Source: a virus
Direction: 5' to 3' (one strand)
Virus record (IMG/VR): IMGVR_UViG_3300033997_000085
Span: 1 to 25,927 of that record
Length of the DNA stretch: 25,927 nt
The notes under the pieces are model-generated. The model worked only from the letters and a program-made list of their open reading frames with translations, was not told the origin of the DNA and made no database searches. This document shows positions 2,804 through 25,927 of this stretch, piece by piece; the first letter of the stretch is position 1, and every line of letters starts with the position of its first letter. A program made the position numbers and the translations under genes.

Positions 2804-3975
2804 TGATATCTCCAGGCGAAACCAACGCTATACGATGTGCCGAGCTGAGTCCCGCCCGCAACTAAACCGGCACCACTGCCGATGAGTGTGCCTGTACTGT
2901 TGAAGTTTGTGAGTTGATAGGCCCATGTGCCGCCTGCTGGTAAGGTCGCCCCCCCCGTTAGCGAAACCCACTGCCCTGCAATTGGCTTCATAAAACTTAC
3001 TGCGGTGTGGCAGGGAGAGCCTGCCGACAGAACATCAGCTGCCGATACGGTTGCGCCACCGCCTGCCGTGGTTAAAAACGATAAGGTGCTCGTCCCGTTC
3101 TGGTGGGAAAGCAGCACTCCCGTATTAGGGCATAGAAGCCTAAGCAAACTCACAGAACTGCCTGCAAGGCTAGTGTTTATGCTTAATGCGGGTGAAGAGA
3201 AACTTTGCGCAGCTTCGACATACAGCGACCCACCAATGCTACCACCCGTCAGATCAAGCTTATTCGCAAGCCCAGTATTCATTTGCGCTGTAGTAGGTGT
3301 AGTGGCTTTATCGGCCTTGGTACTAATAGCAGAGCTTAGCCGTGTGGCGAGAGTTGAAGAAGTAACGGCTGCTGCTGAGTCTGTACCTGCATCTACTTGC
3401 GTTTGAGTTGCCAGTCGGATTAAACCAAAAGCAGAAGTCGTTGCCGCCCCAATATTCCCAATCGCAGTAGAAATAGCATCTGTTAATCGAGCACGTAGTG
3501 TTGCCGACGTAACCGCAGCAGCGGTGTCAGTTCCCGCGTCCACCTGCGATTGAGTTGCAAGACGAATTAGTCCAAAAGCAGTTGTCGTTGCCGCACCAAT
3601 ATTTCCAATAGCGGTTGAGATAGCATCTGTCAACCGAACACGTAGTGTTGCCGACGTAACCGTAGCAGCGGTGTCAGCTCCCGCATCCACTTGCGCCTGC
3701 GTCGCCAAACGTACTAAACCAAACGTTGTAGTTGTGGCCGCTCCAATATCCCCTATCGCGCCTGAAATTAAACGTCTGATAGCGGTTACTAGCTGGGTCA
3801 GGTTGGATTCACTCGGCGCGAGCCCGCCTGCCTCAATCACGTTAATCACCTCATGAGTCACCGCATTCCCCCAGGCCGAAGGAATCAACGAACCAGGTGT
3901 ACCCGTAGAGACGTTTTCATCGACGAATTGACCATCCACCAAACCAATGTTCGGAACACTCTTTGGGAAATCCAT
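2800..3975 (-). CDS. Tail fibre protein with three 49-residue repeats
   Basis: A 391-aa receptor-binding fibre. Residues 1-70 resemble the baseplate-attachment end of phage fibres (MDFPKSVPNIGLVDGQF). Residues 74-122, 123-171 and 172-220 are three tandem 49-aa repeats, each with an FGL(V/I)RLAT motif and a (T/S)QxQVDAG turn, typical of trimeric fibre shaft repeats. The C-terminal 160 residues are Gly/Ser/Thr-rich and end in SVGFAWRYQ, the usual style of the receptor-binding tip. The start overlaps the upstream gene stop (TAATG). Contact with host lipopolysaccharide or another surface receptor is an inference from the family. Confidence 0.9.
   Translation of the reverse strand: MDFPKSVPNIGLVDGQFVDENVSTGTPGSLIPSAWGNAVTHEVINVIEAGGLAPSESNLTQLVTAIRRLISGAIGDIGAATTTTFGLVRLATQAQVDAGADTAATVTSATLRVRLTDAISTAIGNIGAATTTAFGLIRLATQSQVDAGTDTAAAVTSATLRARLTDAISTAIGNIGAATTSAFGLIRLATQTQVDAGTDSAAAVTSSTLATRLSSAISTKADKATTPTTAQMNTGLANKLDLTGGSIGGSLYVEAAQSFSSPALSINTSLAGSSVSLLRLLCPNTGVLLSHQNGTSTLSFLTTAGGGATVSAADVLSAGSPCHTAVSFMKPIAGQWVSLTGGATLPAGGTWAYQLTNFNSTGTLIGSGAGLVAGGTQLGTSYSVGFAWRYQ
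3316..3756 (-). repeat. Three tandem 147-bp repeats in the tail fibre gene
   Basis: Three in-frame copies of 147 bp encode the 49-residue shaft units. The middle unit is very similar in DNA to its neighbours. Unequal recombination between copies would lengthen or shorten the fibre shaft without a frameshift. Confidence 0.9.
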
Positions 3976-16204: not shown

Positions 16205-16546
16205 TTATGGTTTCTCGTCGGGTTCTTCCGGATCGACTGGATCAACCGGATCAACCGGATCAACCGGATCAATGGGATCGACTGGGTCTACTGGGTCTAC
16301 TGGGTCCACCGGATCAATGGGATCTACTGGATCTACAGACTCAGCTGCTTTCCCGCCTTTCTTCGCGGCCGGTTTCTTCGCTCCGCCACCAGCAGGCGCT
16401 TTTTCAGAGACACCAGGGGCCACATAAGCCGTTGCTCGGCCTGACTGGATCAGCGAAGCGGCGGCATCGCTGTCGAAGCCAGCGATCTCACCAATGGCAT
16501 AGCCACGCCATTCCTTTTTGAAGGTGACAATCTTCGTATCGGTCAT
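16205..16546 (-). CDS. Small head-module protein with (Val/Ile-Asp-Pro) repeat tail
   Basis: A 113-aa protein. Residues 1-45 form a small domain (IVTFKKEWRGYAIGEIAGFDSDAAASLIQSG.A) commonly seen in proteins encoded just after HK97-type capsid genes. A Lys/Ala/Gly-rich linker follows (about 50-68). The C-terminal region is twelve tandem VDP/IDP tripeptides and ends EEPDEKP. The tail is extended and acidic. Function is not established; location suggests a capsid-associated or packaging-accessory role (gpFI-like position). ATG with AGGTAG 5 nt upstream. Confidence 0.78.
   Translation of the reverse strand: MTDTKIVTFKKEWRGYAIGEIAGFDSDAAASLIQSGRATAYVAPGVSEKAPAGGGAKKPAAKKGGKAAESVDPVDPIDPVDPVDPVDPVDPIDPVDPVDPVDPVDPEEPDEKP
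16229..16336 (-). repeat. Twelve tandem 9-bp repeats (VDP codons)
   Basis: Twelve consecutive 9-bp units of the type GTT GAT CCG encode VDP or IDP. Unit number can change by slippage without breaking the frame because each unit is three codons. Confidence 0.95.
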
Positions 16547-24039: not shown

Positions 24040-24522
24040 TTAATTCGCTCGACGCAACTTTGACGCAACTTTGAGAACACTTTGAGTCTGTCCGGCCCGA
24101 CGAACGGCCAGTTGTTTTCGAACCTCTGCCCGACGGGTCAGCGCTTGAAGCAACCGCAGGTGCAAAGCGTGCACCTGATCGTAATACGTCTGACGGGCCG
24201 TCGATGAAAAGCCCGCCAGATGCATCTGCATAAGCCAGCTTGGTGTCGGATCACTCCCATACCGAACAACCGCCAGCCGGGCCAGCGCCTCGCCACGTTT
24301 GCCCTGCCGCTCAATTTCAGACAAACCAGCAGTGACCTCTTGAGCAACACCATCAGGTCCAGCACCAGCACCAAGGATAATGCGCGGACCAGGCGTACCA
24401 CGGGGAGCGCAGCCACCCCACTCCATGATCGTAGCCATGGGGCTTCCCATTCCGCCGCCCATCCCATTATTTCGGCATTGCTCGGCCCAGTGCTTCAACA
24501 GAGTTTCCATTTCTTCGATCAT
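24040..24522 (-). CDS. Q-like late antitermination protein (putative)
   Basis: A 160-aa protein. The start MIEEMETLLKHWAEQCRNNG resembles the first helix of phage Q-type proteins. The segment LARLAVVRYGSDPTPSWLMQMHLAGFSSTARQTYYDQVHALHLRLLQAL (about 83-130) looks like a sigma-region-4-like helix-turn-helix with a conserved V.A.H pattern, as in several Q families. The C-terminus is very basic. ATG 24522 has GGGGAG 7 nt upstream. Position directly before a terminator and the late operon supports a late-gene activator role. Family assignment is by pattern and context; it could be another DNA-binding regulator. Confidence 0.65.
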   Translation of the reverse strand: MIEEMETLLKHWAEQCRNNGMGGGMGSPMATIMEWGGCAPRGTPGPRIILGAGAGPDGVAQEVTAGLSEIERQGKRGEALARLAVVRYGSDPTPSWLMQMHLAGFSSTARQTYYDQVHALHLRLLQALTRRAEVRKQLAVRRAGQTQSVLKVASKLRRAN

Positions 24523-24854
24523 CGCCCCGCTCCCCCGCTCAAAACCCAACCCGACACAAAAAACACCATACTCAACACAAACCCAACACAGCTAAAAGCC
24601 TTTAAATTCAACAGCTTTAAAACATCTGTGTTGAGTGTGTTGGGTGTGTTGGGTTTAACGGTCCTCGCATAAGAAAAAAATCGTGCTACCAGGGATTGAA
24701 ATAATGTCACCCATGCGCGTGCGCGACGCCAAACCCAACACACCCAACACACAAGCCGGAAAGCCGCGAAATAGAAGGCTTGAAATTGTGTGATGTATCG
24801 AAAACCAACCCAACACACCCCCAACACACCCAACACACTTTTAGTCGGATTCAT
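24519..24854 (-). CDS. Uncertain ORF spanning the iteron-like region
   Basis: A 111-aa open frame (MNPTKSVLGVLGVCWVGF...). Its ATG overlaps the replication gene stop by 4 nt and its stop overlaps the Q-like ATG by 3 nt, so it is perfectly positioned for coupled translation. Against it: the 9-bp repeats produce runs of VLG and NTP, and the protein is apolar and Trp/Cys/Phe-rich with no recognisable domain, as expected of translated repeat DNA. It may be a small membrane protein or not expressed. Listed at low confidence. Confidence 0.35.
   Translation of the reverse strand: MNPTKSVLGVLGVCWVGFRYITQFQAFYFAAFRLVCWVCWVWRRARAWVTLFQSLVARFFSYARTVKPNTPNTLNTDVLKLLNLKAFSCVGFVLSMVFFVSGWVLSGGAGR
24571..24837. 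repeat. Ten-copy 9-bp iteron-like array (CCCAACACA), possible replication origin
   Basis: Forward copies of CCCAACACA start at 24571 (variant CTCAACACA), 24582, 24734, 24743, 24809, 24820 and 24829. Inverted copies (TGTGTTGGG or TGTGTTGAG) start at 24627, 24636 and 24645 and are directly tandem. Copies at 24582 and 24627 flank a 36-bp AT-rich stretch. Iterons in both orientations around an AT-rich core, right after a primase/helicase gene, recall the P4-type origin, where the alpha protein binds repeats. The role is inferred. Confidence 0.8.
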
Positions 24855-25927
24855 GCTACCGCCGCCTTGATGTGGTCCCAGTTGTCGACGTTCCAGCCCG
24901 CCAAGCGTGCAGCTGCCCGCCAAGCAACCACCGCCTTGCCCAGGTCGGCCGACCTGAGTGATGGGGGCTGGGAAGCCTGGTCATCACGCGGAAAGAAGAA
25001 CGCCCCGAACTTGCGATTGCTGCCGTCGGTCCAGGGGATGGCGCGGGTCTTATCCACCTCGGAGCTGATGAACAACGAAAACTTCGTCTGACTCATCACA
25101 TGCTCTTTGTTGCGGTGACACCACTCCAGAAACATCGCGTAGAGGTCGGTCGATAAACAGGCGCCCCACATATCGCGCCCAAGTTCGCCGTATTGCCAGA
25201 GGAACAGGAAAGTCTGCCAACTGGCCCGACTCAACGCCACCAGCCGCTCACGGGCATCAGTGCTGGGCGGCCTGGTACGCTGGTCGAAGTCGCCCAGGTC
25301 GATGGACAACAACCACGCATAAAGCGCCGCTACACCGCCGTTTTCCAACTCCCGGCCAACCGCCTTCTGCCGCTCAACCGGTAACGTTTCCATCGGCCAA
25401 AGCACCAGCATTCGGCGGTCGCTCGGCGCAATCGGCCACGGCATAATCTCGTTGCTAAGGAACGCCGCATTCATGTGGTTGGCTTCTTCCCAACCATTGA
25501 TAAACTTCGACTCCATACGCACCGTCTTGCCGGTGACCAGGTGCTTGATCTTGCCCACCTGGTTGTAACGTTGATCTCGGCTGACAACTTCCTCAAACAC
25601 CGCCCACAGCTTTCGGCTTTGCCAGGCGTTGAAGTTGCTTTCCAACTGGGTCTGGCCGACCGTGGCAGCGTATTGCCCGTACAACAATCCGAAGGCATCA
25701 GCGAACAACAGGCTTTTACCTGAGCCCTCCATGGTGGAGTGAGCCAGCACCGCGGTATCCATTTTCGCGCCGAGGTGCTGCAAGGGATATGCGAGCCACT
25801 TCACCAACCAATCGTTCGACGACTTATCGTGATTGCACAGGAACGAAATCAACCACCGTAGGTTCTCGCACGCCGCGTCATCACGCGTCGGCTCCATGGG
25901 CAGCCCGTCGAAGGTATTGATGTAGAA
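24851..25927 (-). CDS. Primase/SF3-helicase-like replication protein, C-terminal part (cut at right edge)
   Basis: The frame is open to the window edge; the visible 358 residues begin FYINTFDGLPMEPTR, a typical entry into the DUF5906/D5-like helicase region. Walker A is MEGSGKS (about residues 66-72) and Walker B lies in LWAVFEEVVS, followed by KHLVTGKTVRMESKF and the sensor NEIMPWPIAPSDRRMLVLWP, matching phage primase-helicases with a VirE/P4-like ATPase. A winged-helix-like tail (MFLEWCHRN...) closes it. It should unwind DNA at the phage origin; the primase domain, if present, is off the window. The nearby iteron array may be its binding site. Confidence 0.9.
   Translation of the reverse strand, partial: FYINTFDGLPMEPTRDDAACENLRWLISFLCNHDKSSNDWLVKWLAYPLQHLGAKMDTAVLAHSTMEGSGKSLLFADAFGLLYGQYAATVGQTQLESNFNAWQSRKLWAVFEEVVSRDQRYNQVGKIKHLVTGKTVRMESKFINGWEEANHMNAAFLSNEIMPWPIAPSDRRMLVLWPMETLPVERQKAVGRELENGGVAALYAWLLSIDLGDFDQRTRPPSTDARERLVALSRASWQTFLFLWQYGELGRDMWGACLSTDLYAMFLEWCHRNKEHVMSQTKFSLFISSEVDKTRAIPWTDGSNRKFGAFFFPRDDQASQPPSLRSADLGKAVVAWRAAARLAGWNVDNWDHIKAAVA

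Follow-up and report, generated by a model that had tools for sequence, protein, structure and literature searches.

An iteron array behind a primase-helicase gene as the probable replication origin of a temperate Pseudomonas phage

Related origins and their initiators

Origins similar to the one considered here are known in P4, SaPIs and PICIs. The initiator of the satellite P4 joins a primase to a helicase with DUF5906 and has a C-terminal region that binds DNA; its primase module is of the Zn-ribbon/TOPRIM kind. P4 also requires a second, distant site, crr, beside alpha; the ori type-1 repeats lie at 9310-, 9320-, 9331-, 9353+, 9396- and 9406- of the P4 record. In EcCICFT073, a small satellite that does not carry a full late-gene set, the origin sits directly 3' of the helicase gene, with iterons (GGTAGACA) on both strands around an AT-rich region, and the initiator combines D5_N, DUF5906 and Pox_D5, with no Prim-Pol. 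Its pri-ori supported plasmid maintenance, which was significantly lowered by deletion of ori, and this origin layout was called unique to PICIs (PMC6092414). In SaPIs, which are Gram-positive satellites, the pri-rep-ori segment (PriRep1/SaPI5 Rep) comprises a self-loading helicase and downstream iterons. SaPI Rep recognises the iterons directly downstream of its own gene via its C-terminal domain, and the isolated C-terminal domain of Cch2 binds its putative ori (PMC7581432). Prim-Pol and a ring helicase occur together in phage NrS-1, whose genome contains only two copies of an 8-nt template recognition sequence, which the N-terminal part of the protein uses for priming (PMC7102993, PMC8718748). 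An array of iterons has not been described there.

Here we examine a comparable locus in the virus record IMGVR_UViG_3300033997_000085, whose 25,927 bases, analysed as a whole, are called the window and define all coordinates unless another locus is named. We propose, with a probability of roughly 88%, that the repeat array at this locus is the DNA replication origin of a temperate Pseudomonas phage, a reading built on sequence comparison; the likenesses set out below support the view that the array would work like the origins of P4 and PICIs.

The array and its genomic setting

On the minus strand of the window, the 3' part of the primase-helicase gene (24851..25927, the N-terminus being cut off by the window end) is followed by the repeat region, a phrog_4300 gene (24040..24522), two holins, an HNH nuclease and the terminase genes. 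The primase-helicase contains an AAA+ helicase of the DUF5906/P4-D5 kind (PF19263, E 2.6e-17), also matches PHROG DNA primase (phrog_2249/1156), and ends in a predicted winged-helix-like domain at about residues 249-347 of the 348 shown; the full-length relative L011 combines Prim-Pol PF09250 with DUF5906. Terminase is encoded in the window itself, and portal, capsid and tail genes are indicated by its ORFs and its relatives. The host element is a full temperate Pseudomonas phage, not a P4-like satellite. The phrog_4300 gene, recognised by its PHROG match, forms the downstream flank of the putative origin, and its position suggests a Q-like late regulator. A homologue in Halomonas phage H4907 (L121:4239-4616) is annotated as an antitermination protein, and one in PG1 (L006:2559-3050) as a formyltransferase, the latter annotation being doubtful. 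Elsewhere in the window, a minus-strand ORF at 16205-16546 ends in a long DPVDPIDPVDP repeat.

With at most one mismatch and both strands counted, CCCAACACA matches 15 times in the 25.9-kb window, and 11 of these matches fall within 24549-24837. Those on the plus strand lie at 24550 and 24571 (one mismatch each), 24582, 24734, 24743, 24809, 24820 and 24829, those on the minus strand at 24627 (one mismatch), 24636 and 24645. The original prediction of iteron-like repeats in both orientations after the helicase gene, at regular tandem spacing, is thus confirmed, as is its count of three inverted copies; the forward copies number eight rather than seven (8 of the 11 copies being exact), and the clustering extends over about 290 bp instead of 270. 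The array starts 13 bp past the primase stop, directly 3' of the Prim-Pol/DUF5906 primase-helicase gene, and consists of four clusters with a tandem spacing of 9 or 11 bp. Copies are called F when TGTGTTGGGT runs in the same direction as the primase gene, and R when it runs in the opposite one. The first cluster (24808..24837, plus strand) holds three F copies at 24828-24837, 24819-24828 and 24808-24817, in positions kept in relatives. A twelfth, inverted site with three mismatches, R54 (24787..24796, minus strand), is degenerate in the window and well formed in most relatives; it is the fourth site of a P4-like half-module, FFFRFF, which is completed by the two copies of the second cluster (24733..24751, plus strand; 24742-24751 and 24733-24742). 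The third cluster (24627..24654, minus strand) has three inverted copies, at 24645-24654, 24636-24645 and 24627-24636, and the fourth (24549..24590, plus strand) three direct ones, at 24581-24590, 24570-24579 and 24549-24558. The arms 24635-24656 and 24731-24752 form 22-nt perfect inverted repeats.

Between the inverted third cluster and the direct fourth lies an AT-rich segment (24591..24626), a candidate unwinding element. Its mean AT content is 0.68 over 68 loci, in 54 of which it is the AT-richest gap, and the resulting arrangement, RRR, 35 nt of 68% AT, FFF, can be compared with origins of the PICI/SaPI type. An AT-rich core had been predicted; the AT-rich gap exists, yet it is not central, the geometric centre being occupied by a GC-rich block of alternating purines and pyrimidines, CGCGCACGCGCATG (24712..24725, minus strand), Z-DNA-prone by composition. 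The place of this block is conserved in the family, at a median offset of 120 past the primase stop: in 69 of 79 loci it is present right after the second iteron cluster in a way equalled by at most 5 of 100 shuffles. A T-run element, TTTTTTTCTTATGCGAGG (24663..24680, minus strand), precedes the inverted cluster and has a similar counterpart in 52 of the 79 loci. DnaA boxes show no excess, occurring at chance level (3/79 loci); with this and a helicase-primase as the adjacent gene, the locus does not match a plasmid iteron origin of the RepA/Rep_3 type, which has a separate Rep initiator, DnaA boxes and loading of the host DnaB.

The offsets of the P4 ori repeats, 0, 10, 21, 43, 86 and 96, closely resemble those of the phage half-module, 0, 9, 20, 41, 86 and 95, and both have the strand order FFFRFF. 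This likeness, and that to the EcCICFT073 ori, was first noticed by eye and then tested: in either comparison 6/6 sites agree within 2 bp, which 0/5000 random placements achieved, whereas P4 crr does not fit (4/6, 500/5000). A locus matching the half-module at five or more of the six sites occurs in 13 of 27 repeat classes (null 0.7%), and the other 14 classes fit at only 2-4 of 6. Since the spacing agrees with that of P4 ori, satellites and phages appear tied to one replicon family. The systems differ in several respects: the phage is full-size, uses Prim-Pol where P4 has its Zn-ribbon/TOPRIM module, carries TGTGTTGGGT where P4 has GGTGAACA, and shows one double cluster directly after the gene instead of ori with a distant crr. 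Lacking a separate crr, it belongs to the P4 system only in part, and as a complete phage with late genes it is not a PICI. The likeness to SaPIs concerns the initiator and the iteron position. A P4-like origin beside the primase-helicase, as originally predicted, is therefore strongly supported by the strands and spacing of the six sites, although what was found is the origin type, without the satellite host and without the two-site organisation.

For the initiator, an AlphaFold model of helicase plus C-terminus has a mean pLDDT of 74, with about 88 in the C-terminal part, in which helices are followed by a hairpin and another helix, the order of a winged helix. Foldseek with this model matched the NrS-1 helicase region/CTR (6k9c, E 1e-7), the closest solved structure (hmmsearch 1.7e-15), PriRep1 with dsDNA (E 9e-4) and the pox helicases D5/E5. 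A fold search limited to the C-terminal domain gave no significant match, and it is therefore the succession of secondary-structure elements that suggests the winged helix. In profile comparison by hhalign the helicase alignment matched P4 alpha and EcCI pri weakly, so that kinship with these proteins rests on the DUF5906/Pox_D5 domains and on the Foldseek matches.

Layout across relatives and the frame that spans it

Offsets past the primase stop were compared over 80 related viral loci and the phages PG1, Lodos, pAN and Turba, and read F13, F22, F33, R54, F99, F108, R196-199, R205-208, R214-217, F260-263, F271-274 and F292-295, the right half of the array shifting by up to about 12 bp among relatives. 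Strands and offsets, FFFRFF...RRR...FFF, are largely kept in 79 representative relatives; the commonest strand pattern, FFFRFFRRRFFF, accounts for 22 loci, and F+R?F+RR+F+ fits 57/79. At least three exact 8-mer copies stand at the place of the array in 209 of 212 distinct loci, and in a later locus set in 34/35, against 8/80 control coding stretches. Entropy is 0.21 in repeat columns versus 0.72 elsewhere, and no rotation of the repeat mask did as well (0/332). The 10-mer CCCAACACAC is confined to the repeat locus in all 12 long related records. Given this confinement and the low entropy of the repeat columns, the clustering of the repeats is far beyond chance. PG1, Lodos, KT1 and Mcat4, whose genomes are complete, have a single cluster each, and a second cluster akin to the P4 ori and crr pair was not found in these four. 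In Moraxella phages a Zn-ribbon/TOPRIM primase module replaces Prim-Pol and the layout is unchanged; the layout thus goes with the helicase and its C-terminus, not with the primase type. In marine classes some arrays are perfectly mirrored, as in L157, with offsets 0, 11, 30, 65, 74 and 83 from either end, and likewise in L158. The distant relative AXL_3 (L122) has no such array after its primase. A GC-skew check, proposed with the original prediction, was uninformative, the cumulative extremes not falling reliably at the locus.

The array is also spanned by a 111-codon ORF (24519..24854, minus strand, ATG at 24854), which does overlap both neighbours, as had been pointed out, covering the primase stop and the start of the next gene. 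The repeats could accordingly be part of a real 111-aa protein: the frame is open, with its ATG, in 79 of 82 close relatives, usually with the stop at codon 111, and stop-making variants show a mild deficit (16 seen, 23.5 expected). Yet entropy over the three codon positions is flat in this frame (0.537/0.567/0.548), whereas the neighbours have clear codon-position patterns (0.26/0.23/0.92 in the primase, 0.79/0.66/1.39 in the next gene), the frame is closed in 21 of the 23 loci with other repeats (open in 2), column shuffling leaves nearly as many open frames, and the product has no Pfam, PHROG or PADLOC match. With no codon-position signal and a frame closed in most other repeat classes, the ORF is most likely not a gene. 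We judged it non-coding on frame openness, codon-position entropy, column shuffling and stop-variant counts, and consider a coding origin of the repeats, which had been raised as the competing possibility, very improbable. A non-coding reading accounts only in part for the open frame seen among close relatives.

Repeat word and helicase C-terminus

Among the 79 representatives the repeat sequences fall into 27 classes, most consisting of ACCC and a variable half, for example ACCCAACACA, ACCCTAACCA, ACCCTAGACA, ACCCTAGTAA, ACCCTGCACA and ACCCTCCGGC. In phage KT1 the helicase part of the primase is 61% identical, the C-terminus has diverged, and the array keeps its layout with GGTTAGGGT in place of TGTGTTGGG. 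Repeat and C-terminus change together. In Mantel tests, for which the repeat consensus of nine loci had been re-oriented or re-set by hand and in which distant C-termini align poorly, repeat distance follows C-terminal distance with the helicase held fixed (partial r 0.45, 0/2000 permutations), and with the C-terminus fixed does not follow helicase distance (partial r -0.10). On the tree of the C-terminus, with the same nine hand-set consensus sequences, 26 changes suffice for the 27 classes, which is as few as there can be; helicase trees built from equally wide windows require 28-30, and shuffled labels at least 47. In a held-out test that used automatic consensus only, the predicted repeat was present in 24/24 loci with a C-terminus at least 79% identical to that of a known locus, these matches being mostly also close in the helicase part, and the repeat of the known locus was absent in 10/10 loci at 61% identity or less. 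Strong co-variation and held-out prediction, sequence data both, point to the C-terminal domain as the probable setter of iteron specificity, and the P4-like reading gains from the former. There is a counter-case: ACCCTGCACA is common to Moraxella phages and unrelated marine phages whose C-termini are only 11-23% identical.

The downstream gene adds nothing to this relation. Beyond its contribution the correlation of repeat and C-terminal distance is 0.58 (0/1000), that for phrog_4300 being -0.07, and the repeat class does not follow the phrog_4300 gene. This bears on the possibility that the array is an operator or an RNA-level control site, serving autoregulation of the replication gene, termination, or antitermination before the late genes. 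Such a site would suit the position of the array, with the early primase gene on one side and the late holin and terminase genes on the other, all on the same strand, a next gene homologous to a protein annotated as an antiterminator, and the 22-nt perfect inverted repeats. We nevertheless regard it as quite unlikely, since the repeats change with the helicase C-terminus and not with the downstream gene, copies on both strands are conserved even where they have no pairing partner, clusters occur nowhere else in the genome, and no promoter- or terminator-like site or Rfam RNA was found at the array. A role in packaging (cos/pac) or partition, to which the terminase genes about 2 kb downstream might point, seems scarcely credible: the array goes with the primase C-terminus even among phages whose late genes differ considerably, where co-variation with TerS or ParB would be predicted, no par genes were seen, and the layout equals that of P4 and PICI origins.

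If the array is an origin, as we prefer, the C-terminal domain would be the part of the phage's fused Prim-Pol/helicase that binds the iterons, spaced by 9-11 bp. Helicase hexamers would load face to face on the left half-module, FFFRFF, and on the right half, RRR..FFF, on either side of an 80-bp core and its AT-rich neighbour; the loaded hexamers may then melt the duplex at the core or at the AT-rich gap (68% AT), after which the Prim-Pol domain would prime and synthesis would probably proceed in both directions. Binding, loading, melting site and direction are what we infer from the parallels with the known origins.

The layout described as particular to PICIs occurs in many complete temperate phages, those of Pseudomonas and Moraxella among them. 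In the literature searched, which covered few subscription papers, we found no description of iterons in phages with this primase. What we regard as new is that such origins occur so widely in full phages, that the spacing grammar is shared and that the repeat word switches. On a broader proposal we are evenly divided: one origin grammar may be common to P4-type satellites, Gram-negative PICIs and the full-size temperate phages of Gammaproteobacteria. It would consist of an iteron scaffold fixed in strand and spacing, whose repeat word (at least 27 versions) switches with the helicase C-terminus; in the phages this scaffold surrounds a core that contains a T-run and a GC block prone to Z-DNA. 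If so, satellite and phage replicons would form one evolutionary family, with orthogonal origins that could be predicted from the protein sequence. Through the 27 pairings of a repeat word with a DNA-binding domain that occur in nature, initiator specificity would become a code that can be tested and nearly read; these pairings help in annotating phage origins from sequence, and orthogonal replicons for Pseudomonas could be derived from them.

The C-terminal domain may be a detachable DNA-binding module, and free-standing copies fit this idea. In the viral contigs L315 (3053-3514) and L319 (about 3057-3508) a separate gene of about 150 residues between primase and array encodes the C-terminal domain a second time (z 24.6 and 18.0, 0/500 shuffles). 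In Turba (L009:3353-6081) and H4907 (L121:1502-3993), primase and helicase are separate genes, and the repeat array still follows the helicase half.
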